The notes beneath the pieces were generated by a model, which was not told the DNA's origin, searched no databases, and saw only the letters and a program-made list of their open reading frames with translations. The position numbers were made by a program, and so were the translations under genes. A DNA stretch of 64,000 bases, from positions 1 through 64,000 of the forward strand of contig NZ_ML703287.1 in assembly GCF_008520305.1 (NCBI RefSeq), written 5' to 3'. Source of the stretch: Mesorhizobium sp. SARCC-RB16n (GTDB lineage: Bacteria; Pseudomonadota; Alphaproteobacteria; Rhizobiales; Rhizobiaceae). Positions 9,433 through 51,887 of the stretch are shown here, one piece after another; the first letter of the stretch is position 1; each line of letters starts with the position of its first letter.

Positions 9433-9507
9433 GCGCCCATCGTCTAGCGGTCAGGACACCGCCCTCTCACGGCGGGAACAGGGGTTCGATTCCCCTTGGG
9501 CGTACCA
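9433..9507 (+). tRNA. tRNA-Glu (anticodon CTC)
   Basis: The 75 bases fold into a cloverleaf: acceptor GCGCCCA pairing with TGGGCGT (a G-U first pair), D arm with TCTAGCGGTCAGGA, anticodon stem CCGCC/GGCGG around CTCTCAC with anticodon CTC, T arm GGGG-TTCGATT-CCCC, discriminator A and an encoded CCA. Its 3' 49 bases are the attachment core of the element that begins here; integration restores an intact gene on this side. Confidence 0.97.
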
Positions 9508-9508
9508 A
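9460..9508 (+). repeat. attL core: 3' end of tRNA-Glu
   Basis: These 49 bases, from the last base of the anticodon stem's 5' arm to one base past CCA, are repeated without mismatch at 51839-51887. Flanking bases differ on both sides. Site-specific integration into a tRNA 3' end by a tyrosine recombinase produces exactly this pattern, and such an integrase gene lies at the other end. Confidence 0.95.
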
Positions 9509-23569: not shown

Positions 23570-23580
23570 GCGGGTCCACG

Positions 23581-27420: not shown

Positions 27421-27478
27421 ACGTGGAGGCGCTAGTTGTCCTGAGTTCGCACCCGGCGGCCGAAGCAGCGGACTAGCC

Positions 27479-28886: not shown

Positions 28887-28955
28887 GACCGGATGAGACC
28901 ATATCCGCCGGTGCCAAGCGACAGTGGAATTGAGGCTGATTCACTTGGTCGCGGA

Positions 28956-29315
28956 TCAACCCGCCTGCGCCGGAGCGCGAGTCCGGCGGGCTTCATGGAC
29001 GCGCCGCCAATCAAGCCCTTCAAGCAGTGCCGACAATTGAGCGGCCGTCAGCCGCATCACGCCATCGTGCACTTTCGGCCAGCGGAACTCGCCATCCTCC
29101 AGCCGCTTCGCATAAAGGCAGACGCCGCTGCCGTCCCAAAAGATCAGCTTGATCCGATCCGTTCGTTTCGCACGGAACACATAGACTGCACCACTGAACG
29201 GATCGGCGCCCATCGTCTCGCGCACCAACGCAGCCAGCCCCTCCGCGCCCTTGCGGAAGTCCACTGGTTTCGTTGCCACCATGACCTTGACGGCGCCTGT
29301 CGGCCCGATCACCAC
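28956..29315 (-). CDS. tnpB: IS66 accessory protein TnpB
   Basis: A 119-residue protein of the IS66 Orf2 family: MVATKPVDFRKGAEGLAALV, YVFRAKRTDRIKLIFWDGSG and GEFRWPKV are hallmark segments. It starts in overlap with the end of tnpA, the usual coupling in IS66 elements. The gene itself appears intact although the element is broken. Confidence 0.92.
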   Translation of the reverse strand: MVIGPTGAVKVMVATKPVDFRKGAEGLAALVRETMGADPFSGAVYVFRAKRTDRIKLIFWDGSGVCLYAKRLEDGEFRWPKVHDGVMRLTAAQLSALLEGLDWRRVHEARRTRAPAQAG

Positions 29316-29749
29316 GTCGCCTTCAGCGCTCGGATCACCGCCGCAACCGTCTTGGCGTCGGCGCCGCGACCAACCCGCATGGCGATGCCGTCGATCTCAA
29401 GCTCGATCACGCCAGCATCTCGGGCCGTCTTCCGCTTCAGCGGCTGCGCTGGACGCGTCGGCGCGGGTTCCGGAGGCGGCGCCGTCACCACCGCCGGCAC
29501 GAAGGCCGGAGATTCCTGCTGCACCGAAGCGGCCTGTTTGCGCGCTTCGCGCCGCCAGGCGAACACCTGCTGTGGCCTGAGACCATAACGCCGGGCGACT
29601 TCGGAAATGATTGCCTTCGGTTCCAGCGTCTCCGCGACGATCCGCGCCTTGTCATCCAGCGACCAGTGACGCCGGCCGCCAGCACCGTTGATCACCTCGA
29701 AACGCCGAGGCTGCCGCTCCGGGTCAAGCGTAAGGTCAAGTCCAGACAC
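29309..29749 (-). CDS. tnpA: IS66 accessory protein TnpA
   Basis: A 146-residue protein with an IS3/IS911-like HTH (RRHWSLDDKARIVAETLEPK, then ISEVARRYGLRPQQVFAWRR) and the C-terminal IELEIDGIAMRVGRGADAKT segment of IS66 Orf1 proteins. It is the first gene after the intact IS66 end and overlaps tnpB. Confidence 0.9.
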   Translation of the reverse strand: MSGLDLTLDPERQPRRFEVINGAGGRRHWSLDDKARIVAETLEPKAIISEVARRYGLRPQQVFAWRREARKQAASVQQESPAFVPAVVTAPPPEPAPTRPAQPLKRKTARDAGVIELEIDGIAMRVGRGADAKTVAAVIRALKATW

Positions 29750-29810
29750 AAGCCTATCTCCGATCCCAATACAGGATCGGCAACCTCACAGATCGCGATC
29801 ACTCCCGAAG

Positions 29811-29833
29811 GGTGGCCCGGAAACACCGCTTAC
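29811..29833 (-). repeat. IS66 terminal inverted repeat (left end)
   Basis: Minus-strand sequence begins GTAAGCGGTGTTTCCGGGCC, the recognisable IS66 end. The next 226 bp (29834-30059) hold no gene. Confidence 0.7.
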
Positions 29834-30059
29834 GACGCAGCAATGCTTGGACCAGGTGTGAGCCAATGAACCACGCCCACCCAAAACAAGGCATCAGTAG
29901 GGCATATCTGAATGCGTTTCCTCAGGCTGACTCAACTGCGCCCCTGACGCTTTCCAAAGCGCCAATAGCATGCAACCACTCAGTCCATTGGCTCAAAAAA
30001 CGGCCCAGTTGAAGCAGCGATCAGCAAGGCGTCGAGTACGCTACCAGCGGTGCCTTATG

Positions 30060-30860
30060 TCAACCGACCTTCGCCTTCCGAATCACGTAAAGGTCTTGAT
30101 GTCCCCACCAAAACGCCTGTTGAAACCGGACAAGTTCGGCGCGGTGAAGCGGAGCTACTGCCGATTGGACATAGCGAAGGGTCACTGCGCTGGTGCCATA
30201 GTCGTCCGGGCTTAGGTCGCGCTGGTCGCTGTTCGAATTCCAGTAAAAACCACGATCGTCAAACTCCGCCTTGAGGCCGCCACGCTTCATATTCGCCAGA
30301 GAGACGGCGCCGTGTGTCGTGAAGATGAGAAGCCCTCCCGGAGCAACTGCAGAAAATAGGCGCTCCACCCACGCCGCAAAAGTCTTGTCGGGCGTGTGGG
30401 AAAGGAAGGATAGTGCAAAGACGACATCAAAGGAAGTGGAGACGGACCAACGAGCCGGATCGGCAGACGATACCGATCCTGGTATGCCAAGTTCGCTCGC
30501 TAGGAACGCAATGGCTTGCGGATGAATATCGCAGCAAATCCATTCCGTTCTTTGAAGCACCTTTCTGGCGTAGCGCGTCACCCGGCCATATCCCGAAGCG
30601 AATTCGAGCACATTCTTTGGTCCGTCTGGGAAGTATTCATGTACGAGACCAGCAAATCGGTTTGCGCAATCTTCGCCGCCCATGAAATAGGCCTCAATGG
30701 CCTTCTCGTGGTCAGCCGTGAAAACTGCCCGCACGAGGAAGTCAAAAAGCATGTCGTCCTGGCTGATGCGCGGCGACACCCCCTTGGTCGATGCAATGGA
30801 TCGCGCCATCGGCTCAGTTGCCTTTAGCAGCCCTGGGATATCAACATTCATCAGCAGCAT
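30060..30860 (-). CDS. SAM-dependent class I methyltransferase
   Basis: A 266-residue enzyme: VLEFASGYGRVTRYARKVLQ (motif I), EWICCDIHPQAIAFLASEL (motif II), FDVVFALSFLSHTPD (motif IV) and VAPGGLLIFTTHG (motif V). The ATG at 30860 has AGAGG 4 bases upstream. It is the last gene of the leftward block that begins with the sulfotransferase, and may methylate the glycan made there. It is not closely similar to the methyltransferase at 26575, so the two are not a recent duplication. Confidence 0.85.
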   Translation of the reverse strand: MLLMNVDIPGLLKATEPMARSIASTKGVSPRISQDDMLFDFLVRAVFTADHEKAIEAYFMGGEDCANRFAGLVHEYFPDGPKNVLEFASGYGRVTRYARKVLQRTEWICCDIHPQAIAFLASELGIPGSVSSADPARWSVSTSFDVVFALSFLSHTPDKTFAAWVERLFSAVAPGGLLIFTTHGAVSLANMKRGGLKAEFDDRGFYWNSNSDQRDLSPDDYGTSAVTLRYVQSAVAPLHRAELVRFQQAFWWGHQDLYVIRKAKVG

Positions 30861-30997
30861 TACCTCTAGGAAGCATCCCTTATACAGAGCAGATTGCTGT
30901 CGGCAACCGCACGACTCCGTGTACTCGCGTCAATCTGCGCTCGGTACTTGCCCAGAAGTTGTCGCCACGTTTCGGCGAAACGGGCTTTTCTCTGCTT

Positions 30998-33739
30998 TTA
31001 CCACGACGTCCCCGGAGCGCGCATGCCAGCTACCTCCAGTCCCGCATGACGTGCGGCGAAAGGCAGAAGACGCTCCAGTGCGTGCATGATCGTGCCGTCA
31101 TAATCGGCCGGTTCCGTTGGCCAGTCGCTCCAGTCCAGCCCAAGCGTCAGCAACGGATGCAACGCCGCCGGGCGCGCCCAGAACATGTTACCAATTGGAA
31201 AATCGAAAAAATCATCCAGAGGCGTTGATATTCCAATGCGCCCCGCAAAGCCCTGAGCGATGTCCCGATTTGCACCCCAAGCTAAAAGGTGGGGGTCCTC
31301 AGCCATCAGGAGTCCAAGCTCGGAAGTTGCCGCGAAAGCGGCGGCTGCGAGGTCCAACATCGCGTACTCGCCCCCAACGAGATTCTCCCAGAGGAAGTTT
31401 CGCCAAGTGTCTCCAAGCGACGCGCCTGCCGCCAGGCTACGCTTTCCATGCACATGCCCAAACACGTCATAGGCACCGTCAACAATCTCGCGCGCGAAGC
31501 CCGTGAGGAAGGCTCCGATGTCGCGCCCACGGTTTGGGAAGACTGCGACCGAAACGGAGCCGTGGTACTGCCTGAATGTACGACGCAACTGTTCCGCCTT
31601 CTCGTGACTGTCAGTTGAGAGGAATAGGTCAACGAGGGTGCTGTTCCGCAGCAGCCTGGAACAAAGGTTGGCGGCGAGTTCGGGATAGTGGAAGTGCCCG
31701 TGCAGGGCGATCCGTTGTGTGGTGGCCGCTCGTGGCACGTTGTCTGGCGAGAACACTGTCCGTGACCACGGCCCACGTTGCCGGCCATTCCTGACCCAAT
31801 GTGCAAGGGGACTTCTACGCCCTGCGAGGCAGTCTTGCTCATGGGCCTTGGCATATACCTGCGGGTGGAATCCCGCGCAGGGTCGGCGGAACAATGGATT
31901 CGCCGTCGTGCCTTCTAGACCGCCCCATAGGGACCACCGCAGAAGTGCCATGCGTTCCAGTTCGAACTCCGGCAGGACGTCGCTGTCCATCGGTAGCAGC
32001 ATCGCTGGGTCTACTGCTTTGGACGACACCAGAGTTTCAAGGTCCTCCCTGTTCATCGATTCGGCCGCATCAAGTCCAAGCGCATCCAAATAGCCGACAT
32101 AGCCCTTCATATCGTAGGCTTCCCGACCGACCCGCGCCACGGTGGCTCGCAGTCGGCCGATGTCGGTGCCGCCAGCGGCGAGACGACAGATTTCCTCCGC
32201 GGCGGCGTGGGTGTCTAGGTGCGGCACCACGAGATGACGCGTATCCGCGTCGGCAGAAAGAATTTCTGCCGTACCGCAGGCACCTTCAAAGCATATCGTC
32301 GGTATTCCGCGCGTCACCGCGTCGATGCCTACATTCGGTTGCGGATCGAGCCGCGAAGACATCAAGAAGGCATCCGCCCGAGCGTAGAAGGGCTCCAGAT
32401 CCGCCACCGCAGGCGTCATAACGAGGCTATCGCCCAGGTCGGAATGAACCAATTGCTCCGCAAGGTAGGACGAATAGTCTTGATCGTTGACGGGATCGTA
32501 TCCTTCACCGATCCAGATGAAGCGAAATCTTAGGTCGGGTCTGAGGCGGCGTGCTGCCGCGGCAACAGCAATGAACAGGTCCACTCCTTTCCGGATTTGC
32601 ACAAAGCCGGCCCCAATGACCACAAAGCGACCTTCGACTTCGTCCAGCGGTCCCCCGAGAGCCTTGCCCTCGGCCGAATAGGAACCATTGGAGATCTCAC
32701 GCGAGCGCGGCGGATCGTTGCGTCCCTGCGACTTTACATGAACGCCGGCTCTCACCTTCATATCAGAAAAGAATCGAGCGGATGACTCCGCAACTACGCG
32801 TGCAGGGAAAACAACATGCGAAGCAAAGTCATAAACTTGACGCATTGAATCGACCGGCCGTACATATGCGGCAAATTCATGTACTAGAGCCACTGTTGGC
32901 ACACCCATCGCGACAAGGTGAGGGACAATCACACGCGTCTCGACGCTGTTTGCGACAGCGTAGAGCGGGGCGTAGACCTCGGCGATCCTCTCTGCGATCC
33001 GACTAGCGTCCGCTGAGTGACAGTACTCGGCGAGGGGGCCGATCGAGACGGCTGCGGCTGCCTCAAAATCTCGTTCCAGTTCGCCTCCGCGCAGGACTAA
33101 GGAGACGACGCGATAGCGATCCGAAAGATGTCGGATTAGATTCCACCCAAGGACCGGTGCTCCGGTGCGGGACGCCTCGTGTGACAGCACTAATACGACG
33201 GGGGCACCTTCGGTCGCCAACTGCGGATAGATCAAACCATCGGCGAGTGACACAGGCTGGCGACGTTCGTCCCGTCCGTTGTGTTCGTAGTGCCAGAGTG
33301 GGGAGATTCCAGCGGCGGCGATGTCGCCATAGCGCTCCAGGTAGTAGTATGGATCAAAGCCAGCCGACGGCCTCCAGCCCATGCGCTCGCCCGCCACAAC
33401 ATAGTGCAGGACGGGGTCCATGCCGGCGGGCAGGAGACGACCATATCCTGCGCCATCGAAGAGTGCACTGCTTCGCAATGAACCGGCGAGGGCCTCTGCC
33501 TCCGCCCGATTCATGGGAGGTGTCCCGCCCATTGCAGAGAGTTCCAACCAAGCAACAGCGGGTGGACCAGCGAGGCCGGTCGCCTCATAGAATGGGCGCA
33601 AGAAATCTCCGTCAAAGCCGGCGGCGCCGGCCAGCGCCGCGCTGCCGCGATAGAGCGCCCCGTCCAGGCAGCCAGAGGGCGGTAACAAAGTAGCCGCTCC
33701 AGGGAGCGGCGCCGCTAAGGCATCGCGTATGGTCGTCAC
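30998..33739 (-). CDS. Multidomain glycosyltransferase: GT4 domain plus RgpF-like C-terminus
   Basis: A 913-residue protein. Residues about 94-123, 128-160 and 622-655 are copies of a small FDxxYL...HY..G module shared with two other cargo proteins. Residues about 170-580 form a GT-B family 4 transferase (VVLVLSHEASRTGAPVLGWN, VIGAGFVQIRKGVDLFIAVA, DPQPNVGIDAVTRGIPTICF with the donor-binding glutamate region). The C-terminal part from about 670 matches rhamnan-synthesis protein F (ALHGHFHYPELA, FPNRGRDIGAFLTGF, VFGHVHGKRS, GNMFWARPAAL). Together this suggests assembly or capping of a rhamnose-like surface polysaccharide. It overlaps the upstream gene by four bases. Confidence 0.85.
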   Translation of the reverse strand: MTTIRDALAAPLPGAATLLPPSGCLDGALYRGSAALAGAAGFDGDFLRPFYEATGLAGPPAVAWLELSAMGGTPPMNRAEAEALAGSLRSSALFDGAGYGRLLPAGMDPVLHYVVAGERMGWRPSAGFDPYYYLERYGDIAAAGISPLWHYEHNGRDERRQPVSLADGLIYPQLATEGAPVVLVLSHEASRTGAPVLGWNLIRHLSDRYRVVSLVLRGGELERDFEAAAAVSIGPLAEYCHSADASRIAERIAEVYAPLYAVANSVETRVIVPHLVAMGVPTVALVHEFAAYVRPVDSMRQVYDFASHVVFPARVVAESSARFFSDMKVRAGVHVKSQGRNDPPRSREISNGSYSAEGKALGGPLDEVEGRFVVIGAGFVQIRKGVDLFIAVAAAARRLRPDLRFRFIWIGEGYDPVNDQDYSSYLAEQLVHSDLGDSLVMTPAVADLEPFYARADAFLMSSRLDPQPNVGIDAVTRGIPTICFEGACGTAEILSADADTRHLVVPHLDTHAAAEEICRLAAGGTDIGRLRATVARVGREAYDMKGYVGYLDALGLDAAESMNREDLETLVSSKAVDPAMLLPMDSDVLPEFELERMALLRWSLWGGLEGTTANPLFRRPCAGFHPQVYAKAHEQDCLAGRRSPLAHWVRNGRQRGPWSRTVFSPDNVPRAATTQRIALHGHFHYPELAANLCSRLLRNSTLVDLFLSTDSHEKAEQLRRTFRQYHGSVSVAVFPNRGRDIGAFLTGFAREIVDGAYDVFGHVHGKRSLAAGASLGDTWRNFLWENLVGGEYAMLDLAAAAFAATSELGLLMAEDPHLLAWGANRDIAQGFAGRIGISTPLDDFFDFPIGNMFWARPAALHPLLTLGLDWSDWPTEPADYDGTIMHALERLLPFAARHAGLEVAGMRAPGTSW

Positions 33740-34251
33740 GGCTGCCTCTTTGGACCCAGCATGCGATTGCGCACAAAACGTCGAAGGGGCGACGGCATAA
33801 GACGAGCCAGCCTTAGAATCCCAAATCTCTGCAGGATCGCTTCCAATCGATTTCGTAGATTGAAATATCGGTTACGCCATTCAGCTGCCTCCGCCTCAAG
33901 TGCCGCGGCCCGCGCCAGCAGATGGGAGGATGCGATCCGACGTCTGAACGCCACTCGGAGGGCATCACGCTGCCCTTGGGCAAGGATGAGTGCCGCCTCC
34001 GCGTACTCTGCCCGCTGGGTCTGCAATTGCAAAGCCTCAAGTGCCTCGCAAAGCTGTCGATCCAGCGATCTCTTGGCCTCTCGCGATGCAACGACACCGC
34101 GCGGCTCGCCCCGTACCGATTGTCTCTCAAGCGCACTCTCTTTGCTAGGCATCGCCACGACCTCGCTGGCTCGATGAACAAGGAATTCGAGCGCTGTACC
34201 CGGCACTACGCGCTTGAGAATCCCACCCAGTCGGGCTTCCTCGATTCGCAT
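33736..34251 (-). CDS. Coiled-coil protein of the glycan cargo
   Basis: A 171-residue protein with a helical, charged centre (about residues 58-130, including LCEALEALQLQTQRAEYAEA and ALEAEAAEWRNRYF), probably a coiled coil, and a basic C-terminus. Its stop overlaps the start of the GT4/RgpF gene. An internal ATG at 34152 is a possible start. Coiled-coil partners that measure or organise chain synthesis occur in some polysaccharide systems, but nothing here proves such a role. Confidence 0.6.
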   Translation of the reverse strand: MRIEEARLGGILKRVVPGTALEFLVHRASEVVAMPSKESALERQSVRGEPRGVVASREAKRSLDRQLCEALEALQLQTQRAEYAEAALILAQGQRDALRVAFRRRIASSHLLARAAALEAEAAEWRNRYFNLRNRLEAILQRFGILRLARLMPSPLRRFVRNRMLGPKRQP

Positions 34252-34283
34252 TCCGCGTCGGCGCGCCTGGACGCCAAGCAGAC

Positions 34284-35120
34284 CTATTCATAGCCGATTT
34301 CCTTGAGATCACTTTCCCATTTCGAAAATATCGAGAGATCGCTTTCTTTGGCGTCACTTTTCCAGCGCGAAAGATCCTTGCGGGGTGATGAAGTCATGTG
34401 ATCTTTAGCGCTTTGATCATATAAATCAACGACAGAGGTCATTTTCTCAACAACATCATCGGCATCGGGGAGATCGTAAAACGACAGAACACGCCTGCAG
34501 AATAGGTCAGGATGTTCCATCATTTCCTCGTATCGTAGAACGATTGATCTTCCGGCAGTACGTAGGGATAGCCAACGCACATACTGCACAAATTGAACTA
34601 TCCTCTGATATAATACATTGTCTCCGGCCTCTTCACCAAAAGATATGATCCCTCTTTTCTTATTGAACGATTTTACAGAATAATAAATCGAACGCGGATC
34701 CCTAATTAAAAATATTAGTTTAACGTCTTGGCGTACTTCGGCAATCTCACGCGCGAGATCTACCCCAATTCCCTTTTCAACTGAATGTACGGCTTCCGTA
34801 TTATGCTCAACATCGGCAACGTGGTTCAACATAAGCCTGGAGAATGCTATCGGATCGCCGGGCTTGAGCTTATTTAGCTGCCGGCCGAAATCCCAAACTG
34901 CCTCGTCCCCATCCTGTGCGAAGTCATAGGTTGCCTCCTGGTAGGTAACAGGGGAAAGATCGGGCGGTAAGCCAACTTTTGATGCTGCGAACAGATATTG
35001 ACTAGTCCGACTTTCGTAAGGAAAGACCTGCCTGATTAGAAATGCCGGATTCTCGCGAAGCATCCGCATAAAGATTGTTGAGCCAGATCTCCCATAGGAA
35101 ACGACGATCGTGAGATTCAC
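34284..35120 (-). CDS. Sulfotransferase (PAPS-dependent)
   Basis: A 278-residue enzyme. The 5'-phosphosulfate loop is VSYGRSGSTIFMRML at residues 7-21 and the 3'-phosphate-binding motif is LIFLIRDPRSIYYSV at about 135-149; both are diagnostic for sulfotransferases that use PAPS. The GTG at 35120 is preferred because these enzymes begin just before the loop; the frame stays open to 35366 without a convincing ribosome site. The gene is clearly more AT-rich than the chromosome. Sulfation of Nod factors or surface polysaccharides is known in rhizobia; here a surface glycan is the likely substrate from context. Confidence 0.82.
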   Translation of the reverse strand: MNLTIVVSYGRSGSTIFMRMLRENPAFLIRQVFPYESRTSQYLFAASKVGLPPDLSPVTYQEATYDFAQDGDEAVWDFGRQLNKLKPGDPIAFSRLMLNHVADVEHNTEAVHSVEKGIGVDLAREIAEVRQDVKLIFLIRDPRSIYYSVKSFNKKRGIISFGEEAGDNVLYQRIVQFVQYVRWLSLRTAGRSIVLRYEEMMEHPDLFCRRVLSFYDLPDADDVVEKMTSVVDLYDQSAKDHMTSSPRKDLSRWKSDAKESDLSIFSKWESDLKEIGYE

Positions 35121-35456
35121 CAATGCACCCCGTTTTTCTCCCCACCTTTGCTGCCGCCTGACGGAGGACTTAGCCCCATACGCTGACCGCCTGCAAGGTT
35201 CTGTGGGATCATTTCGCATTCTCGACAAATTGAGGTGGGTGGAAACTGCTGGCCCAGGCATTGCCTCGTGCGCGACGGCGCTCGGGAACTTCACAGATGG
35301 ATTGATCGCCGTCGTCTGCCGCAAGTTTTTGTTCGGGCGGCAGAACGCGATGATTTCCAATCTCAAATGCAGCCGAAGCCTTTATGCCGGCCTCGCATTG
35401 TGTCGTGGAAAGGTTTCCAGGGAGATTGAAGCCCAGCGCCTAAAGCGATATCCAGT

Positions 35457-36683
35457 GTGATCGGAGGAATCAAACTGCGGTTACATGCACTTACTGGACT
35501 GCGATTTCTTGCAGCCTTTACGATCGTTCTCCATCATTTGCGGGGAAGTTTCGGGATCCCGACGGATATCTCCTTCGCCTGGAGGGCGGACATTGGTGTC
35601 ACGGTATTTTTTATACTTTCTGGTTTTGTGCTCACCTATTCCTACTCGTCGCTCGGCTCTGGCAGGGTGACTGTGTGGCAGTTTTACGTAGCTAGGTTCG
35701 CCCGCATTTGGCCGGCGCATGCCGTGACCCTGCTCGCTGCGATCGCGCTTGGCGTCCCGTTCCAGCTTCAGTCTTTCATTGCCAACGCCGCGCTCGTGCA
35801 GGCCTGGATACCGACTGGTCATTACTTCTTCAGCTACAACGCCGTGAGCTGGAGCATCTCGACCGAAATGGGTTTTTATCTGCTTTTCCCGCTGCTCGTG
35901 TTGAACATCGCGACAACCTGGCCGTGGAAGTTGGCCGCAGCCCTGGGGATTTCAGTCGCCGTGGTCACCTTGGCCTGTATCATCGATTTGCCTGCCTATT
36001 CTGGCAGACAAGACGTTTTCGTCATGCAGGGGCTGGTGATGACCAATCCGCTTGCGCGACTGTTCGAATTCACACTCGGCACGGCTACCGCGGCCGTCTG
36101 GCTACGGAATCGAGACCGGCTTAGCTTTTCCTTGGTCACGTGGGCCGGCTTCGAGGCTCTATCGATCTTGTTCTTCATTTGGGGAACACGCGTCATTGGC
36201 TCAGAGCTTCAATCCATTTTCCCCACCGGCTTGTCGATGGAGTATTGGATCGGGCAAAGCCTTTCCCCGAACATTCCGATCGCTGTTGCACTGGCCGTTT
36301 TGGCGTCAAGCACCGGCCCATTGGCGCGGCTGCTGGGATCACGGCCAATGATTTTTCTTGGCGAGATTTCGTTTGCTATTTATCTCACTCACCAGCTCGT
36401 TCTTCGGTTTTTCCTAGGCCATCTGCAGATTTTAGAAGGCTGGTCTCCGTCAGTGGCGACTGCTGGGTATCTGACTGCCGTACTTGTCGCGTCGACCTTG
36501 CTGCATTTTCTTGTGGAGCTGCCGGCGCAGAATGCCATTAAAGAGTTAGCTATAAGACTGCGCGGCCACCGCATCCCAAATGCCGGGTCCGCGCTGCCGG
36601 CGCAAGGCTCTTCCTCCTGCATAAATGCTCATCCGACCTCAATCCGATTGGACAGCTCTTCTCAAAGCTCAAGCGCTGGGTGA
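35457..36683 (+). CDS. Acyltransferase 3 family membrane protein (OafA/ExoZ-like)
   Basis: A 408-residue integral membrane O-acyltransferase with about ten hydrophobic segments. The diagnostic N-terminus is LHALTGLRFLAAFTIVLHHL, with the catalytic histidine in the first helix, followed by DIGVTVFFILSGFVLTYSY and FYVARFARIWPAHAVTLL; WSISTEMGFYLLFPLL is also typical. Such enzymes acetylate or succinylate sugars of exopolysaccharide or O-antigen. It is transcribed divergently from the sulfotransferase. The start at GTG 35457 is uncertain because GGAGG lies just after it. Confidence 0.87.
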   Translation: MIGGIKLRLHALTGLRFLAAFTIVLHHLRGSFGIPTDISFAWRADIGVTVFFILSGFVLTYSYSSLGSGRVTVWQFYVARFARIWPAHAVTLLAAIALGVPFQLQSFIANAALVQAWIPTGHYFFSYNAVSWSISTEMGFYLLFPLLVLNIATTWPWKLAAALGISVAVVTLACIIDLPAYSGRQDVFVMQGLVMTNPLARLFEFTLGTATAAVWLRNRDRLSFSLVTWAGFEALSILFFIWGTRVIGSELQSIFPTGLSMEYWIGQSLSPNIPIAVALAVLASSTGPLARLLGSRPMIFLGEISFAIYLTHQLVLRFFLGHLQILEGWSPSVATAGYLTAVLVASTLLHFLVELPAQNAIKELAIRLRGHRIPNAGSALPAQGSSSCINAHPTSIRLDSSSQSSSAG

Positions 36684-37036: not shown

Positions 37037-37573
37037 GGCGTGTGGGCCACGAGGCCGGCTCGCTGTCGCCTTGGCTGCATCCCGAACTCAAGAAACTCGG
37101 CCTGCCGGCCATCTGCCTGGAGACGCAGCACGTGCGCGCCGGCTATCGGCGCGGCGCAACAAGACCGACAAGGCCGATGCGCTCGGCATCGCTCAAATCA
37201 TGCTGCACCGGCTGGTTCCGATAGGCCTATATCAAGTCGGAAAGCTGCTACCGGACACGGCTTCTGCTAACCCACCGGCGCAATCTAAAGGCCAGTTCCT
37301 CGACTTGGAAAACGCCATACTGCGGTTGCGGAAGATCCGCTGTCGTCCGAGTTGATGGACGACAGACTGTCGGCGCGCGCCCCGCTATGGAGGCAGTATT
37401 GCCGGCTGCACGATCTGGTCGTGAAAATGGTGGCTCGCAGCGAATTGTGCCGACGCTTCATGGCAATCCCTGAGGTCGGCCCGGTCACAGCACCTTCGTT
37501 CATGACGGCCATCGATGATCCGTCACGCTTTCGCCGCTCACGCGACGTCGCGGCCTACTTCGGACTGACCTAG
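37037..37573 (+). pseudogene. IS110-family transposase remnant in three frames
   Basis: Pieces of one IS110 transposase are read in turn from three frames: SLSPWLHPELKKLGLPAICL with ETQHVRAG near 37060-37160, NKTDKADALGIAQIMLHR near 37155-37215, and LCRRFMAIPEVGPVTAPSFM with DPSRFRRSRDVAAYFGLT ending at TAG 37573. The order and motifs fit the DEDD domain and the transposase IS116/IS110/IS902 helix-hairpin region. The N-terminus is absent. It abuts the broken mucR on one side and a broken phage gene on the other. Confidence 0.82.
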
Positions 37574-38206
37574 CGGCGCCGGCAACGCGCTTTTGCCGCA
37601 GAACTCGCTCACCGGCTCGGCGGGCGAGGCTGGTGACGCAACACGACGACTGGCAGCGGAGGATCCCGACCTAACGGCCGGTCTTGTGCGGCAGAATCTG
37701 GCTGATCGCTTCGGCAAGGCTAATACCGAAACCCAGGAAGGCGTTCGTGACTTCGCCGGCGCGAAGTTTCACAAGGACGTCGCGGGCAACAACGTTCGGC
37801 AGGAAGTGCTCGACGCCGTCCTGCGCGAGATACCTGGTGGGCAAGCGGCCGCGGCAATGCCGGAGGTGCTGGACGTTCTTCAGGCCACCGGACGCCGCAA
37901 GCAGATCGGTAGCGCGACGGAGTTCAATCGGTCGATGAACATGGACCTGGGCGGCGCCGCGTCCCCCGTCGGCTGGCTGTCGGCCTCGCACGCTCTTTGG
38001 GCACCTCGCTGGTCAAAGCAGGTGACGTTGCCAAGCGTGCGGCTCTGCGAAGCAATCTATGGGCTCTGGCCGACATGTTCATCGACCCTCAGTCGGTCGA
38101 ACTTATCCGAAACGCGAACAACCGCGGCGCCAGGATCGGGATCGGCGAGGCTTCGGAGCGCACCGGTGCTGAGGCCGGCGGGGCACTTTCCGCCTTCCGG
38201 CCCTAA
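37574..38206 (+). pseudogene. 3' remains of a phage virion-interior gene, frameshifted
   Basis: From about 37580 one frame reads SLTGSAGEAGDATRRLAAED, LVRQNLADRFGKANTET and MPEVLDVLQATGRRKQIGSA, then near 37998 the sense continues in a second frame with SLVKAGDVAKRAALRSNLWA, LADMFIDPQSVELIRNANNR and a stop at 38206. This style matches large ejection-type phage proteins and suggests the third member of the series that starts at 17669. The 5' part was lost when the cargo or IS110 arrived. The 100 bp after it hold a 7-bp hairpin (38259-38279) and no gene. Confidence 0.7.
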
Positions 38207-38309: not shown

Positions 38310-38975
38310 TTGGCTACGAGGCGCACGGCATTGCCGCCATCGTCACTGGAAGAGACGCTTTTTCTGATCGTAGAACTTCCCGACGAGCAGTTCGCCCGAC
38401 TTAAGGAATGCCTTACGTCCGAATTGTCGTTTGCTCTACCGCGTGCCGTCGTGAGCGCCTTGGGTCAAGATTTGGGACTGTCCGAGAGGCAGATCTCATA
38501 TCTGGCAAATTCGCTCGCCTACCTTTACGTAGCGGCACAAGACTCTCCGCTTGCGCATAATGATGCTGCCAAAGCGCTGGTCAGGGACCTCGACCTCTCG
38601 GCATTGCCCCAACCAGAGGCGGCTCTATTTTCCACCCGCTTATTGGAGTTGATTTCAAAGTCATCGGCCCACGACGCATATCGGAAGCGAGAGATGTTGA
38701 AGGGCGGTATACTGCCCGCAGCGGTCGATTTGAAAACCCTGGTCGACCTGCGGCCGGATTTCGGAGATGATAAAGAGACGCCGGTGCCGAAGTCATTCGT
38801 GATATCGATTCAGCTGAGAATAAGCACAGATTCTCGCATTGACCAAAACCGGGACCTGACCTGCCATCTCACCGAAGACGTTCTCGACGATTTTATCGCC
38901 AAGCTGCAGCGCACGAAAAGAAAAATAGACGCACTGAAGGATTTTGCTTCCTCCAGCTCTCTGGCTGTTCGTTAG
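38310..38975 (+). CDS. Unrecognised protein, first gene of a three-gene operon
   Basis: A 221-residue soluble, mostly helical protein; TTG 38310 is the probable start, with a G-rich ribosome site, though the frame is open further upstream into the phage remnant. Segments such as ETLFLIVELPDEQFARLKEC, LGQDLGLSERQISYLANSLA and KREMLKGGILPAAVDLKTLV are visible; none belongs to a family I can name. Its stop TAG is directly followed by the ATG of the next gene, so the two are translationally coupled. Standing in a prophage between virion genes, the operon is placed like a moron or defence gene set. Confidence 0.65.
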   Translation: MATRRTALPPSSLEETLFLIVELPDEQFARLKECLTSELSFALPRAVVSALGQDLGLSERQISYLANSLAYLYVAAQDSPLAHNDAAKALVRDLDLSALPQPEAALFSTRLLELISKSSAHDAYRKREMLKGGILPAAVDLKTLVDLRPDFGDDKETPVPKSFVISIQLRISTDSRIDQNRDLTCHLTEDVLDDFIAKLQRTKRKIDALKDFASSSSLAVR

Positions 38976-39749
38976 ATGTATCATTTTACAGAAGATTCAC
39001 CAATCGCTCGATTTGATCGCGGGAACCCTGATGCGACAGAGAGGATGGTTCGGTGTACGGTCCGCAATCAGGATCTCGCGCCAACAGGGGTGCCGAAGGA
39101 TGCTGACTTTCTTCATCCGATGCTCTCGGCCAGTGGAATCTTACATCGCGGTTTAAGGGATATTCCCTCACTTGGCGTCTGGCGGGAAGCCGCCAGCGCC
39201 TACAATTTCGAGCTTCTTACCTACCATCAATTCAAAGCTGGCGCCCCCGAGACAAAAACCGTCCCCCGCCAAGCGGCAATGACCCTGAGTGGCTCGTATT
39301 CCCCAAGCAAGTCAGTGCTCACTTATTGGTTTGACGGCCTGCGGCAATTTGCTCCGGCGGGAGAGTTCGCAGAGTCCGAACGGCTTATGAGCTGGTCGGA
39401 TGAGGCAGAGTTGGCTGCAGAATTCGGCCGAAGGTTGGTGTCACTCTTTGGCTCTTTCGTTCAGCAGAAGCGAGGGGAGCACCCCGGCACATTTGCGCTG
39501 GTCCAAGATGGTAGAGTTGATGCTCATTTCCAGGTCGCCGTATGCGAACGGTTTTGGATTGTCCCCGACCAATGTTCTGCATTCCTCAACGCGCTCGCAA
39601 CCGACTTGCTGGCGAACCTGAGCGGTGGCGTAGAAGTTTCGGGGGAGTGGGGCCGAATGAGCGCGACCGGCACCAGCGTGCGCGTCCGGCTTGAGCCGCT
39701 TCGTAAGATCGCTGAACAGAGCTTTGTGCGTGCCGTTAGAACCGAATGA
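38976..39749 (+). CDS. Unrecognised protein, second gene of the operon
   Basis: A 257-residue soluble protein beginning at ATG 38976, with no gap after the previous stop, and ending in a four-base overlap with the phosphoesterase gene. The sequence alternates strands and helices (ARFDRGNPDATERMVRCTVR, AAMTLSGSYSPSKSVLTYWF, GRRLVSLFGSFVQQKRGEHP). No membrane segment, signal peptide or nuclease motif was seen. It may be a scaffold or sensor for the phosphoesterase; that is inference from coupling alone. Confidence 0.65.
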   Translation: MYHFTEDSPIARFDRGNPDATERMVRCTVRNQDLAPTGVPKDADFLHPMLSASGILHRGLRDIPSLGVWREAASAYNFELLTYHQFKAGAPETKTVPRQAAMTLSGSYSPSKSVLTYWFDGLRQFAPAGEFAESERLMSWSDEAELAAEFGRRLVSLFGSFVQQKRGEHPGTFALVQDGRVDAHFQVAVCERFWIVPDQCSAFLNALATDLLANLSGGVEVSGEWGRMSATGTSVRVRLEPLRKIAEQSFVRAVRTE

Positions 39750-40750
39750 CACTTTTCCGGTTCATTCAGTTGTCCGATATCCATCTCTGCATCGAGCCTC
39801 GCCGGAGAAATGCTCTAGCGCTATTTAAGAGGCAACCGAGCGGCAGTCTCGATACCGCGCGCCAATGGTGGAATGGAAACTTAGCACTCAAGTTAACGCG
39901 TCCCGAAAGCTACGACCCTGACATCGTTGCTGGTGTAGCGCGGTTCGCATGGCGTTACGGTGACATAACCGACTGCATAATTGTATCAGGAGACCTGGCG
40001 ACCACAGGCAGTCAGCTAGACCTAGCAACGGCGAAGGCGTTCGTCGACGCTACTCCCGTTGACCGCTTTTTTACCCCAGGTGGCTCTGTGACCTTGAAGG
40101 CGTCTCATCCCGATATCCATGTGATGGCTGGGAACCACGATCACTACCGTGATGACTACGGAAGCCCCGGAGGGTCAACCACCTTCAGCCTAAATTTTGG
40201 AAATCGGATGCCGAACCATGACGGAAAGATTTCACACACAGTTTTGAGCAAAGGGGACGAGAAGCTAGCACTGATCTTCGCTGATTTCACGCTGGACGCA
40301 AGCAATGACTGTTCAGCAATTAATGCTGCTGCCTTTTACCTAAGGTATGGTCAAGGACGCGTCTATCCGAACGTCTTAAAATCGTTGCTTCTTAGACATC
40401 ATGATCTGAGGCAGAAATATAGAAACATCCATATAATATGGGTAATTCATTTTGCCCCTTTTGACTGCACGCTGAAATTGCAATTGAACGATTTCGAGGA
40501 GCTAGTTGAGGCGGCTAAATCTGCCGGGGCAAAGCAGATACTGTGCGGGCACACGCATTCCATGAAAAAGCACATAGATGGTCACTTGTCTATTTATTGT
40601 GCCGGCCCCGCTGGTGCGATTGGATCGGATGATTCGAGCTACATTCACCTCAATGAACTTGATATAAACGATGGTGTAGGGCGCTTTACGAGACGCAACT
40701 TTCTATGGTCGACCGACGCCCACGATTTTGAAGAGCGGGCGGCTGATTAG
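39746..40750 (+). CDS. Calcineurin-like metallophosphoesterase
   Basis: A 334-residue enzyme with the full set of metal ligands: LSDIHL (Asp11, His13), SGDLATTG (Asp83), AGNHDHY (Asn130, His131), WVIHFAPF (His235) and CGHTHS (His269, His271 region). Such enzymes hydrolyse phosphomonoesters, phosphodiesters, nucleotides or DNA ends, and several act in phage defence or signalling. The insert between the GNHDH block and the later histidine is long and unlike Mre11/SbcD. It overlaps the second gene by ATGA. The gene is markedly AT-rich compared with the phage genes beside it, a sign of separate acquisition. Substrate unknown. Confidence 0.88.
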   Translation: MTLFRFIQLSDIHLCIEPRRRNALALFKRQPSGSLDTARQWWNGNLALKLTRPESYDPDIVAGVARFAWRYGDITDCIIVSGDLATTGSQLDLATAKAFVDATPVDRFFTPGGSVTLKASHPDIHVMAGNHDHYRDDYGSPGGSTTFSLNFGNRMPNHDGKISHTVLSKGDEKLALIFADFTLDASNDCSAINAAAFYLRYGQGRVYPNVLKSLLLRHHDLRQKYRNIHIIWVIHFAPFDCTLKLQLNDFEELVEAAKSAGAKQILCGHTHSMKKHIDGHLSIYCAGPAGAIGSDDSSYIHLNELDINDGVGRFTRRNFLWSTDAHDFEERAAD

Positions 40751-40945: not shown

Positions 40946-43576
40946 ATGCCGTCTCCGACGAAGCCGAAGCTAACCTATTCATACGTAGCATTCCAACAGG
41001 AACAGCAGCAGAACCCATTTCCTGGAACTCAATTGCAGGCGGACCTTGCCGAGCTAACGCGGGCCGCCGGCGACACGATCGACGCACTGGCCGACGTGCG
41101 GCGGTCTGACGGCAAGCTGCAGAACCAGAGCGTCACGCCGGACAGTCTCGCGCTCGCAACGCTGGCGCTGATCACCGGCGAGGGCGCTACCGGCCCCACG
41201 GGGCCGACCGGTCCTGCTGGCGCTGGTGCGACCGGCCCGACGGGCCTGACAGGTGCCACGGGGCCGTCTGGCCTCGCTGGAGCGGTCGGAGCGACGGGCG
41301 CTACCGGTCCTGCGGGAGCCAACGGAACGAATGGCAGTAACGGCGCAGTCGGAGCCACCGGACCGACCGGTGTTACCGGATTGACCGGCGCCACGGGACC
41401 GACCGGCGCGACAGGGCCGAGCAGCACGGTTGCAACACGAACCGCCATGAAGGCGCTCACGCCATCGGCCGGTGCGTCGGTGTATCTCACGGAGGGCGCA
41501 CGGGCCGGCGTGTTTTGGGCCGTCAATGCCTCGATCCCGTTCTCCGACCCGTCGGAAGGTGTCTACGTCGCGTCGAACACTTCCGGTTGGTATTGGGAGC
41601 GGCGCGTCTACAAGCTCCATCCGGGCATGTTTGGCGGCAATTTTGATGTCACCGTGGACAGCGGCACGGCGATCAACGCGATGTTCACCTTCGCGAAGCT
41701 CACCTACAGCGCGGCAGCAGGCGGGTTCCTGTTCGCCGCCAGCACGGACGGGCGTTGGTACAAGTCCACAGTGTCAATCGACGCCACCGGCATTCAACAG
41801 CCGGGGTTCAACATCCTGAACTTCCGTGTTGCTGGGTACTGCACGGGCAAGACGCTGCTCGATTGCGCAGGCGGCAACGTGCTGTCTGGCAGCGATATCC
41901 ACCTGACTGGCGACGCTACGAACACGCCGCAATGCCTGCTCTATCTCGGGCGGGACAAAGTTGCTGGCGTTGTGCGCGCCGCGCCGAGCAACACTTTCCA
42001 AAAAGTGACGCTGAACGGCTATGCGTCGAAAGCATCGCTGATCCAATTCGCGTCGGAAGTGTCGGACCTGAGCGGCTTCTATATCGACAACAAGTCGAAG
42101 AACGCGAACAGCTATTGCTACGTCAACGCCGGCCATTGGGGCACGATCGATACCTATCTCGGCGGCATGACCTCCGACTATGCTACGCTGCCGGCCGCCA
42201 CCGACAGTTCGCAGTCGAACATTTTGCACAAGATCGACATGCCGACGCTTATGCGTAACGTCCCGTGGACGCTCGCCGTGACCGGTGTCACGAAGGCAAA
42301 TCCCGCGGTCGTTTCGGTCAATGCAGCGGGCCTTGTCTCATCTGGTCTTGCGAACGGCGACAAGGTTTTCATTCACGACTTTGCCGGAATGACGGAACTC
42401 AATCCGGGCACCACGAATGCAACCGCCGTCTACACCGTCGCCAATATCAACACGGGCGCGGGAACGTTCGAGCTTTCCGGCATCAACTCCACCGCGTACA
42501 CGACCTTCACATCGGGCAATGTTCGCCCGCAGATGGGGCCGTGCATGTTGCTCAATGGCTGCGCCGCATTCTCGTGGGACAATGGCTACGGCCTTTCCTA
42601 CGGCAACCCGAGCGTTGTCCTTGACATGAACAACGGCATCGCCATGCGCGATGTTTCGCTCGGCTGGCAGCATGAACCGAAGGGCCGGGCTCCGATCCGG
42701 GTAGACCAGCCGGCGACGGCTGTGCAGACTGTGCTTCAAGGCTTGGAACTGGATCTGCTAGGCCAGTTCCAGACGTTCACCACTTGCATCATCGACAGCA
42801 ACACCGCGCTTGGAAACACCCGGATCGACAATCTGAAATTGAACGTTCGCTATATGACCACGGTGCCGTCGAGCAGCATTGTTGGGAGCCCCGCCAAGTT
42901 CGTTCTCAATGCCTTCGACATCAGGGTGCCGCTCACTGCCGCGATGCAGGATTTCACGGCGACTGGCTCGTGGGCTGACGGCTTGGCACAAAAGGGCGTC
43001 TTCGTCGCGGGCGACAGTTCGGTGGTCACTGTCTTTGGTACTGACTACGAGTACCGTAACAACAGCATCCCAGCGCAGGCAGTCTATTCAGATGACGGCA
43101 GCGCCAATGACGGCCCCTATTACGACCTGAAGCGGAACAGCGCCACCCCTGCGAACGGGGACGGTCTTGGCGTCGTTCGGTATCTCGGAAACAACGCATC
43201 AGTGTCGGCAGTGGCCTATGCACAGACCAGGGCGCGTGCCCTTCTGGTGGCAGCGGGCGGCGAAGCGGGCCGGCTTGAGTTCCTGACTATTAGCGGCGGC
43301 GTGACGGGGATCTCAGGTTATGCCCAAGGCACCCTCATAAACGCCGCAGGGTCGTTCACCGTGGCGAGCACCCAGGTGGTTGGCCCACGCGCAACCGGGT
43401 GGACGGCAGGCACAGGCACGGCGCTTAAGGGCGCATTCGCCGCCTACGCCGGCCAGACCCACACGGGGTCTTATGTACAGGCCACCGTGCAGGCTCTCGA
43501 CAATGCTGCTAGGGATGCGAGCCAGCGCGTCAAGGCAATCGAAGACGCGCTACGCACGCACGGGCTGATCAATTGA
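40946..43576 (+). CDS. Phage tail fibre/spike protein with collagen-like repeat
   Basis: An 876-residue protein. The N-terminal 45 residues ([33 protein letters not shown]) match the virion-attachment end of tail fibres. Residues about 80-160 are a collagen-like Gly-X-Y tract rich in GPT and GAT, which would form a trimeric triple helix. The long C-terminal part is rich in G, N, S and T and fits a beta-helix receptor-binding spike; the extreme C-terminus ([17 protein letters not shown]) is a short coiled coil. The ATG at 40946 is chosen because homology starts there; the frame is open to 40895. The 195 bp before it hold no clear gene. Confidence 0.8.
41183..41425 (+). repeat. Collagen-like repeat tract (GATGPTGP units) inside the tail fibre gene
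   Basis: About 27 consecutive Gly-X-Y triplets with few exceptions. The DNA repeats (GGCGCGACGGGACCGACC-like units) are a likely site of slippage or recombination, which would change fibre length. Confidence 0.85.
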
Positions 43577-48804: not shown

Positions 48805-50433
48805 ATGAAAATCCTTGCACTGGTTATACCGTTAGCAACCCTGGTCCTTGCTCGAGCCGAAGCGGCGGAAATCAATGTCGCGCACCTGGACCAGCAGCTT
48901 GGCCTCGGCTACGGCTTCAATCCGGTAATTGGAAACTTCCACCCGCCCTGTATAAAAGTCGTCGCCAACCAGGCTGATAAAACAATTGTTTCCGACCCCA
49001 AGGCGGTCGTTGACATAAAGAAGATATCCTCTACGACTGAGTTCAAGAAAGCACTAAACGTTCACGTGTATGCATCGGTATTTGGAGCCGCAGGGCAGGC
49101 AAGCGCGGAACTCTCCAACATTGTCGCTCACGGTGTAAGTTCAAACGATTCATATTTTTCAATACAGGTTAGAGTTGAAGGTACCAGAGAAGTACTGTCG
49201 GGCGACATTGAATTAACCGATTCGGCTATCAAAGCGTTGAAGATATCGCAAGCTTTTTTCAAAAGCGCATGTGGGGATAGTTATGTCGCATCCTTGGTTA
49301 GTGGCGGAGAATTTTTGGCAATCGTTCAGCTGCATAACGCCAGCGAAGAAGAAAGCAATAAATTTCTGGGCCAACTGAAGGCGAGCTATGGCACCGCAAA
49401 GATTGATGCGGGAACTGAATCAGATTTTCAGACACTTTCTAAAACTAATAGAGTAGACATACATATTGCCCAGACAGGGCATACAACCGACCATCCGTCA
49501 TCTCTAACGGATCCGGAAGCGTTGCTCCGATATGCTGCCGAATTTGCTGGAAAATTGGTGGGAGAGAAAGACAGCATTCCAAGCGTTTCTTCTGCGATAT
49601 ATGCTAATTATTCTGATTCGTTGAACTTCAAGCTAGCGTTACACGAAGCAAATATATCTAAACTGTCTTCCCAAAGCAATTCCGCTGATATTATGGAAGA
49701 TCTGATGCAATTGTACGACGCATCGACAGATCGTATTGCGATCGTGGAAAACGCGCTGAATTTCAACGAAAGCTATTTCGATTTCGACCATGATAAGGCT
49801 TCAGAGTATCTTTCAAAAATGAAGAAAGTTCGTAGCGATGTTGAGAAGGCCGCAAAATCTTGTGCCACGGCCGCCGCCGATGGAGGCGATTGTGCCGAGC
49901 AAGACACCGTTGCCATAGCTGAAGTCCCGGCGGACATTAAACGCGTTCCTGATTGCAATGTGTCTGCATTCGCTTCGATGCACGCCGCCGGTAGCGATAG
50001 CGCGTGTACGCAAGTGCAGAGGGTGGATAAAAATTGCTACTGCACGCAGTGCGAGGCATTTCTGAAGTCGAGCTACAAGAGAGCAAGCTCTCAACATCTC
50101 CAGTCGGAGTGCATCGGGTTCGCGGCTAATACCCTCGTGACAGCTAGGGTCCATTCTAAATTGTCGATAGCCGGAACGGGAATATGGCCGGAGGTATTTT
50201 TCAACGGGGGCAAGGAGGCGACAATAATGAACCAACATTTTAGCGGTTCTAGCGACGTGGACCTGGACACGGGGATCGATCGGGCGCTTAAGACCACGTC
50301 GAAAGGAAGCTTTCCGATCGACGTAACCGTTAACGCCTGCATGCAGGATGGCTCTCCTCAGCAGACAACTTGTAAATTTGAAAATATCGACCCTTCTGAA
50401 AAATCACTTGTCACTGTGCAGAGCCAGAACTGA
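48805..50433 (+). CDS. Exported protein with a MACPF-like signature
   Basis: A 542-residue protein with a signal peptide (KILALVIPLATLVLARAEA, cleavage near residue 20). Residues 156-168 read C-G-D-S-Y, six residues, then G-G, which matches the spacing of the MACPF/CDC signature (aromatic-G-T/S-H-aromatic-x6-GG) with two substitutions. Residues about 70-135 and 200-230 alternate strands as expected for such a fold. A helical middle and a cysteine-rich C-terminal part (VDKNCYCTQCEAFLKSS, SECIGF) follow. GGGGGAG lies before the ATG. The gene is strongly AT-rich relative to its neighbours. A pore-forming or host-interaction role is a hypothesis; the element has no immunity gene beside it. Confidence 0.6.
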   Translation: MKILALVIPLATLVLARAEAAEINVAHLDQQLGLGYGFNPVIGNFHPPCIKVVANQADKTIVSDPKAVVDIKKISSTTEFKKALNVHVYASVFGAAGQASAELSNIVAHGVSSNDSYFSIQVRVEGTREVLSGDIELTDSAIKALKISQAFFKSACGDSYVASLVSGGEFLAIVQLHNASEEESNKFLGQLKASYGTAKIDAGTESDFQTLSKTNRVDIHIAQTGHTTDHPSSLTDPEALLRYAAEFAGKLVGEKDSIPSVSSAIYANYSDSLNFKLALHEANISKLSSQSNSADIMEDLMQLYDASTDRIAIVENALNFNESYFDFDHDKASEYLSKMKKVRSDVEKAAKSCATAAADGGDCAEQDTVAIAEVPADIKRVPDCNVSAFASMHAAGSDSACTQVQRVDKNCYCTQCEAFLKSSYKRASSQHLQSECIGFAANTLVTARVHSKLSIAGTGIWPEVFFNGGKEATIMNQHFSGSSDVDLDTGIDRALKTTSKGSFPIDVTVNACMQDGSPQQTTCKFENIDPSEKSLVTVQSQN

Positions 50434-50452: not shown

Positions 50453-51694
50453 TCAGATATCGGGCGCCAGCCGCCTAATCGTGTCAGCGACGTAGGAAGG
50501 CGCCAGATGCGCATAGTGCTTCTCAACCATGCGAGTGTCGCTGTGGCCGAGCGCTTCGGCGACGACGATTAATGGGGCGCCGTTGCGAACCATCGTACTG
50601 GCGTAGGTGTGCCTGATCTCGTGCAGCGTAACGTCTGACAGTTTGGCTTGGGCAAGCAACGCCTTCCAGGGGCGATTGTAAGTAGACGGCGCCCAGGCCG
50701 CACCATTCTCCTGCCGAAGCAGCGCCTCGGCTCCGGGTCGATCGCGTGCGAGCCTTTCGAATAGTTCGGCGCCGCCAGTAGGAAGCGGGATGTGCCGCGG
50801 CTTGCCGCTCTTGCTCTCTGCCACGAAAACCGACTTGTTAGCCGCGTCATAATCCGACACCCGGAGCCGAGCGAGTTCACCGAAACGCGCGCCCGTCACA
50901 AGAGCGGCCGACACGAGATCCCGAATGGCGCCGTTGCTGGCGGCGATGAGCGCCTTCTGCTCTGCAGGCGACAGAAACCGGACACGCGCTGCGGTAGTGC
51001 CACGGTAGGGCTTCACCAGACGCCAAGCGGTGTCATCGGTCACGAGCCGATTGTTGAAAGCCCAATTGAGAGCAGCCTTCAGGGTAGTGAGGGTCCTGTT
51101 TGCGGTGTCGCGCCTCCGCCGGATAATTTCAGGGTCCGATAGGTCGACCGTGACCGTGTTCGCTTTGCTAGCCGATTTCTTTGTCCGCAGCCGCTTCTGC
51201 GCCGTCACCATACCGTCCCGCCAGGCGCGGACCTTTTCGATCGTCAAATCGGCGACTTTCGCCGAACCCAGCTTTGGCCGAATATGGAATGCGGCCCTGG
51301 TCTTGGCGTCGCCAATCGACTTCATACCCTCCGCGCTGCGCGCTTCAAAATACCGGTCGAGAGCGTTGTTGACCGTCAACGCCGCCGGCGCGTTGCTGCC
51401 ACCTTTCAGCACCTTCAGCCAGGCTCGAGCCGCCTCTTTGGCTTGCTCATGTGACAAGATGGTTGAGCCGTCGGCCGCTAGGACGTCGTCGGCGCGCCCC
51501 AGCTTTGACTGGATGCGAGCACCGTCGCTCGAGCGTGACGCCGCCAGCCATGCGCCGCCGCGGCCATAGCTTCCCCGGCCGCGTCGATACCCCAGCCGGA
51601 GGCCAGGATTGATGATCTCCCATTCGGGGGCGTCCGAGTAGGGCAGGGCCGTCCGACTGGTCCGACTTGAAAGAACGCTGCGGCGCTGCGCCAT
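50453..51694 (-). CDS. int: Tyrosine-family site-specific integrase of the element
   Basis: A 413-residue recombinase that inserts and excises the element at tRNA-Glu. The catalytic set is present: VTGARFGELARLRV (arginine about 269), LHEIRHTYASTM (HxxR about 357-360), GHSDTRMVEKHYAHL (late histidine and the tyrosine nucleophile about 393). An N-terminal arm-binding domain and a core-binding domain precede them. The ATG at 51694 has GGAGG 5 bases upstream; the frame is open far beyond, across the attachment site, but homology and the ribosome site support 51694. Its promoter region contains the right arm-type boxes, so the integrase may repress itself. Confidence 0.95.
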   Translation of the reverse strand: MAQRRSVLSSRTSRTALPYSDAPEWEIINPGLRLGYRRGRGSYGRGGAWLAASRSSDGARIQSKLGRADDVLAADGSTILSHEQAKEAARAWLKVLKGGSNAPAALTVNNALDRYFEARSAEGMKSIGDAKTRAAFHIRPKLGSAKVADLTIEKVRAWRDGMVTAQKRLRTKKSASKANTVTVDLSDPEIIRRRRDTANRTLTTLKAALNWAFNNRLVTDDTAWRLVKPYRGTTAARVRFLSPAEQKALIAASNGAIRDLVSAALVTGARFGELARLRVSDYDAANKSVFVAESKSGKPRHIPLPTGGAELFERLARDRPGAEALLRQENGAAWAPSTYNRPWKALLAQAKLSDVTLHEIRHTYASTMVRNGAPLIVVAEALGHSDTRMVEKHYAHLAPSYVADTIRRLAPDI

Positions 51695-51709
51695 TCTGCC
51701 TCCGGGAGT

Positions 51710-51729
51710 TTTCGTTGCTAATTTCGTTG
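51710..51729 (+). promoter_or_regulatory. Candidate integrase arm-type sites, right end
   Basis: Two direct TTTCGTTG boxes start 12 bp apart (51710 and 51722), as at 9540-9559. The two 20-bp segments differ at only three positions, all in the spacer between the boxes. They overlap the region just upstream of the integrase ribosome site. Confidence 0.6.
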
Positions 51730-51838
51730 CAACGAACCCGCTAGAACGCAGATGGTCGCAAACACACAATAGCGCACAATACCATTGTGAATCAAACGTG
51801 TAAGAGCGTGCGTCGTTGTGCAGCAAAGTCCAAGTTGA

Positions 51839-51887
51839 CGCCCTCTCACGGCGGGAACAGGGGTTCGATTCCCCTTGGGCGTACCAA
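51839..51887 (+). repeat. attR core: duplicated 3' end of tRNA-Glu
   Basis: Identical over 49 bases to 9460-9508. The 5' half of the tRNA is absent here, so no functional tRNA is encoded. It marks the right end of the element. The following 231 bp (51888-52118) show no supportable gene. Confidence 0.95.

Follow-up and report, generated by a model that had tools for sequence, protein, structure and literature searches.

A metallophosphoesterase operon with two partners of no known family in a degraded Mesorhizobium prophage, a possible mobile conflict cassette

In conflict systems, fast divergence of partner proteins with conservation of their gene order is usual. The operon described here ends in a gene for a metallophosphoesterase (MPE) that resembles the class III phosphodiesterase-type MPEs Rv0805, which we take to be a cyclic-nucleotide phosphodiesterase, and GpdQ, as it has the DxH, GD, GNHD, H and GHxH residues. 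It differs from these enzymes in its coupling to two proteins that match no recognized family. The MPE fold is presumably also present in VPS29, a subunit of the eukaryotic Commander complex. For the COMMD proteins of the same complex, one study reports that homologues were not identified by sequence in Archaea or Bacteria (PMC10187114), and another that they resemble a chlamydial protein in structure (PMC6089597). Finally, the validated anti-phage systems DS-8 and DS-9 from DefensePredictor contain a metallophosphatase, the residues of which are reported to be required for defence (PMC13092281). DS-9 has a HAD phosphatase partner and DS-8 also a NACHT domain (PMC13092281), and in these components the operon differs from both.

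The window, i.e., the whole stretch of 64,000 nucleotides analysed, carries three genes on the forward strand: P1 (38310..38975, 221 aa), P2 (38976..39749, 257 aa) and MPE (39746..40750, 334 aa). The initial annotation had described them as an operon with zero or negative spacing, and the ORFs are indeed found at these positions, with a P1/P2 junction that reads TAGATG (zero gap) and a P2/MPE junction that reads ATGA (4-nt overlap). P1 runs from a TTG at 38310 to a TAG stop at 38975. Its start is a choice, as the surrounding open frame extends back to 37593; TTG 38310 was retained because a G-rich Shine–Dalgarno-like run lies immediately 5′ of it and because the BLASTP alignment with a 210-aa homologue at a second locus, L082, begins at residue 10 of the window P1. 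All three frames are uninterrupted across 2.4 kb, and chance ORFs are ruled out because all three proteins are conserved elsewhere in the same order. Neither promoter-like sites (1 vs a shuffle mean of 2.0) nor terminator-like sites (7 vs a shuffle mean of 3.6, sd 1.7) are clearly above shuffles at the trio.

The trio sits in a degraded Mesorhizobium prophage at tRNA-Glu; the PstS encoded in the window shares 99% identity with that of Mesorhizobium sp. M8A.F.Ca.ET.218.01.1.1. A 49-bp direct repeat derived from the 3′ part of tRNA-Glu is present at both ends of a 42.4-kb element, with the left copy within the 3′ part of the tRNA gene itself (9460..9508, forward strand) and the second copy at 51839..51887 (forward strand). 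Beside the right repeat lies a phage-type integrase on the reverse strand (scanned over 50453..51700, in an ORF that stays open to 52015). DNA of Mesorhizobium sp. B2-3-12 (L003, 1-2433) is 86% identical to window 50591-53046, so that a related integrase region occupies the same place in that strain. The element holds primase/helicase, ejection, tail-fibre and ligase genes as well as IS remnants; terminase, portal and capsid were not seen among the element proteins scanned, which represent part of its ORFs.

Upstream of the trio, the 3′ fragment of an ejection-protein gene (37572..38206, forward strand) is spread over two reading frames. It corresponds to EVC08_011 of Rhizobium phage RHph_N65, a protein of 708 residues: residues 499-703 align in two frames with 37572-38185, and for residues 1-498 the window gave no match at E 1e-3. 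An IS110-like remnant (37045..37584, no strand assigned), recognized by DNA matches to annotated IS110 transposases, lies beside this broken virion gene. Downstream of the trio, a collagen-like tail fibre or tail needle gene follows (40946..43576, forward strand), so that the location between a broken virion gene and the tail fibre, as first proposed, is correct. The initial annotation also called the trio AT-rich compared with its neighbours. The GC content of P1 (0.538), P2 (0.565) and MPE (0.501) is lower than that of the phage genes measured, i.e., the fibre gene (0.622) and two virion genes (0.629 and 0.665). This low GC is not peculiar to the trio within the element, because other cargo is as low or lower, with 0.553 for one glycan gene and 0.483 for the gene at 48805. 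The latter gene (48805-50433) has the lowest GC among the genes measured and encodes a 542-aa protein, for which Pfam, PHROGs and PADLOC returned nothing within the limits applied. Inside the prophage, about 15 kb (21347-36683) are occupied by pyruvyltransferase, glycosyltransferase and acyltransferase genes and by a gene judged transposase-like by eye, and three genes there were measured at a GC of about 0.55.

The window MPE scores above the cut-off of Pfam Metallophos (PF00149; 31.9 vs 21.5 bits); the relatives at loci L082 and L084 reach 38.5 and 45.5 bits. D11, H13, D83, N130, H131, H235, H269 and H271, which we take to be the metal ligands, are invariant in all four MPEs aligned, in agreement with the complete calcineurin-like metal site first attributed to the third gene. 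Compared with the PDB, a profile of these four sequences matched Rv0805 best (4e-5), followed by an Icc protein (1.8e-4) and by phosphohydrolase entries (0.003) that presumably correspond to GpdQ; a two-sequence profile gave no PDB match at 1e-3. Judged by its residues and profile matches, the MPE should be an active phosphodiesterase-type enzyme. A relationship to VPS29 was considered and rejected, as the sequence profile found no VPS29 chain among 6 PDB sequences at E 0.1; in this respect the trio is unlike Commander.

Apart from the window, the clear full trio is present in one genome. When 397 genomes of the order were searched with the MPE at an E limit of 1e-8, a single match was obtained, in genome G247 (E 5.8e-38, 33% identity; 32-33% between the window MPE and that of this locus, L082). 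Both partner genes are located directly upstream of the L082 MPE, in the order P1-P2-MPE as in the window, with a gap of 16 nt between P1 and P2 and an overlap of 4 nt between P2 and MPE. In single-pair BLASTP, L082 P1 is 25% identical to the window P1 over 188 residues (E 2e-9) and L082 P2 is 27% identical to the window P2 over 130 residues (E 2e-10), with residues 106-234 of the window protein aligned. The trio is thus conserved as a unit, with gene order and P2/MPE overlap retained at a different type of site: by eye, the L082 trio is flanked by mechanosensitive-channel-like and ccmC-like chromosomal genes. A comparison with genome G211 illustrates how variable this site is. The ccmC-like protein of G211 is 97% identical to that of G247 and the DNA on both flanks is 90-92% identical to L082, whereas the interval with the trio (L082 6248-9174) is replaced in G211 by 3.8 kb of other genes. 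The trio is therefore accessory, and different genes are taken up at its site. By eye, the G211 counterpart (L099 6466-10237) holds sulfotransferase-like, HExxH-type and methylase-like genes and short proteins, and resembles a RiPP cluster rather than a defence locus. For the remaining genome of the G247 family, G163, there was no alignment across the trio site.

Beyond these two loci, the MPE family is encountered only sporadically. With MPE alignment A1, no relative was found in 385 genomes of the class (E limit 1e-12) or in 394 of the family (E limit 1e-8). There was one in 398 phylum genomes (E limit 1e-10; G962) and one in the 3 genomes of the G247 family, namely G247 itself. Among 48 genomes in the order of G962 (E limit 1e-8), there were two, G962 and G956, the latter, which by its number was already among the 398 phylum genomes, reported only once all its candidates were scored. 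The large searches (385 to 398 genomes each, E limits from 1e-8 to 1e-12) scored at most 5 first-look candidates per genome, and the prevalence figures are therefore lower bounds. The MPE of G962 (L084) matches with an E of 2.4e-26; its partner gene shows no similarity to P2 (E 0.57). In G956 (L088), the MPE (E 7e-18) is part of a three-gene operon encoding proteins of 125, 216 and 313 aa, which by eye has serS/gyrA-like genes on one side and a transporter-like gene on the other. Its middle gene matches the C-terminal half of P2 weakly (E 0.0067; hhalign probability only 5.7%), and its first gene was rejected as a proven P1 relative (E 0.48); an ORF at L085 was rejected as a P1 relative, too (E 0.6). 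The 4-nt overlap between P2 and MPE is kept in all three loci with P2 or a somewhat similar gene in its slot (window, L082 and L088), a count that excludes L084 with its dissimilar partner. P2 was found neither in 25 genomes nor in a further search of 146, and a scan of genome contigs with P2 revealed no relative. Nothing was obtained from plasmids by tblastn with P1, P2, MPE and the L082 MPE, and the MPE had no tblastn match among 50,697 phage records. IMG/VR scans with P2, MPE and alignments A1, A2 and A3 likewise gave no relative. The idea that the trio belongs to the virion cluster was dismissed, since none of the relatives found lies in a phage. Altogether, the trio is a rare, sporadic accessory cassette that probably moves horizontally among soil bacteria.

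The initial annotation could assign neither P1 nor P2 to a family, and at both loci they indeed match no known one, metabolic or other. Library scans with the window proteins gave no match in Pfam, NCBIfam or PADLOC at E 1 or in PHROGs at E 0.01, and L082 P1 and P2 have sub-threshold matches only, for L082 P1 in Pfam Rrn6_HB (0.014) and NPFF (0.15). For P1, profile alignment points to a possible likeness to the COMM domain; P2 was considered as a COMM protein and rejected. By eye, the motif VDLRPDF in the window P1 and FVDLRSDF in L082 P1 places DLRxDF near the position of the COMM DWRxD motif, and from there the P1 pattern resembles COMM through to the C-terminus. L082 P1 was ranked against 6544 six-frame ORFs of at least 80 residues from the window and the loci, a control set in which many are not genes and some are mutual orthologues. 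It came first with a 5-row (E 0.033, next 0.48), a 4-sequence (E 0.004, next 1.1) and a 7-sequence COMM profile (E 0.021, next 0.46). On its own, L082 P1 also outscored all of 900 control proteins and was exceeded by one in a larger set of 1997, while none of its 3933 scored shuffles (5000 made) reached the real score. The window P1 ranks lower: trimmed, it takes place 12 of 6544 with the 7-sequence profile (E 4.7, weak); untrimmed, it takes place 13 with the 5-row profile (E 22) and about 79 with the 4-sequence profile (E 66). Of its 4418 scored shuffles, 105 did better than the real sequence, as did 5 of 900 and 34 of 1997 controls.

With hhalign, the P1 pair aligned to COMM sets over 85 columns (E 0.0016, probability 16%) and over 44 columns (E 4.5e-4, probability 33%). 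To the 7-sequence profile, it aligned collinearly over 144 columns (48-209 vs 31-177; E 9e-4, probability 22%); COMMD9 by itself gave an unconvincing alignment of 23 columns (E 0.11). In the reverse direction, a P1-pair profile searched against the other ORFs and four COMM sequences placed COMMD9 at the top (E 1.9) and COMMD1 in seventh position, with 9za2 far down at about rank 228 and 9za1 at about 499. The corresponding chains, 9za1_A and 9za2_A, had turned up in PDB searches. They belong to two entries of eight chains each that bear the name COMM domain-containing protein; they differ in sequence from the human proteins and are possibly prokaryotic. No paper on them was found, and plasmids and IMG/VR yielded no relatives. 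No COMM chain was retrieved from the PDB by the P1 pair or by its C-terminal part. Neither P1 protein matched PF07258 at E 1 (cut-off 22.4 bits), and the two weak PF07258 matches in G247 lie either on the other strand from P1 or at a distance from it. Among 200 phylum genomes, none had a PF07258 match above the cut-off and there were two weak matches (E 0.003 and 0.025), the stronger of them in a 146-aa open frame of G938 (L095). P1 may be like COMMD proteins in its collinearity with the COMM profile and in the place of DLRxDF, and it is unlike them in lying under the Pfam cut-off, in lacking the motif W and in being bacterial. On balance, the profile comparisons tip slightly towards P1 being a true COMM relative. 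The wider proposition, that P1 is a bacterial COMM-domain protein and that bacteria own mobile operons in which a COMM scaffold is joined by an adaptor and an active MPE, is more doubtful. The open-access matches listed contain no report of a bacterial COMM protein or of COMM together with a metallophosphoesterase, which is not proof of absence.

Direct evidence for a defence role of the trio was not found. With PADLOC, there was no match at E 0.01 for the window trio (best, the MPE at E 0.041) or the L082 trio, and the L088 MPE had weak matches (best 1.2e-5). No known defence gene was recognized beside the trio at the window, L082 or L088, where neighbours were mostly judged by eye. An assignment to DS-9 was rejected, as the window MPE scores 13 bits vs a cut-off of 420 for NF053862 and P1 and P2 match no Pfam family. 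Enrichment in defence islands, which the initial annotation had named as a check, is not supported: L082 and L088 are among chromosomal genes that look housekeeping-like by eye, the G211 site is not defence-like, and the PADLOC matches are weak.

Of the roles considered, conflict with phages or mobile elements is the most likely, and the trio may be a horizontally moving anti-phage cassette with the MPE as effector, to which we assign a probability of roughly 0.42. The sporadic spread, the carriage by a prophage and the exchange of genes at a chromosomal site fit a conflict system, as does the divergence of P1 and P2 to 25-27% identity with the order kept. The joint conservation of all three proteins at L082 and the invariant catalytic ligands of the four MPEs also speak for it. 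Moreover, DS-8 and DS-9 provide a precedent for metallophosphatase residues in defence (PMC13092281). Under this proposal, the three proteins would form one complex, in which P1 would act as an oligomerising, possibly COMM-like scaffold and P2 as an adaptor holding or restraining the MPE. Upon cell invasion, the MPE, as an effector of the class III phosphodiesterase type, would cut a nucleotide or nucleic-acid phosphodiester. A nucleotide-signalling role, which had been suggested as well, is conjecture. Confidence is held at this level because the trio has no recognized defence neighbour, PADLOC match or phenotype. The L084 partner unlike P2, the L088 first gene unlike P1 and the single clear full-trio relative also count against a conflict cassette.

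A rather unlikely alternative is that the trio is an accessory regulatory or metabolic cassette, transferred but not for defence. The MPE would then hydrolyse a cyclic nucleotide or a glycerophosphodiester for the host's own physiology, and P1 and P2 would be its regulatory subunits. Its nearest solved chains by profile (Rv0805, the Icc protein and the phosphohydrolase entries) are what such a role would lead one to expect, as are the housekeeping-like surroundings of L082 and L088. However, no metabolic neighbour recurs at the loci seen, and a free-standing phosphodiesterase would need no two fast-diverging partners. Improbable is a moron that serves the prophage itself, through superinfection exclusion or lysogen fitness, instead of a general mobile system. 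The position between ejection-protein remnant and tail fibre, with a GC below that of both, agrees with a moron, but the prophage is degraded, no phage genes were seen beside L082 or L088, the phage records gave no match to the MPE, and five IMG/VR scans gave no relative. Least probable is a decaying passenger without present function. The IS remnants in a degraded prophage, the TTG start of P1 and the lack of promoter- or terminator-like sites clearly above shuffles speak for it, the three frames open over 2.4 kb and the retained MPE ligands against it.

If the trio is a defence system, as the conflict-cassette reading has it, it would contribute an MPE effector whose two partners are as yet undescribed. 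If the COMM relationship of P1 holds, the root of the eukaryotic COMMD family would lie in or near prokaryotic conflict systems, which would bear on how the last eukaryotic ancestor came by its ten COMMD proteins.
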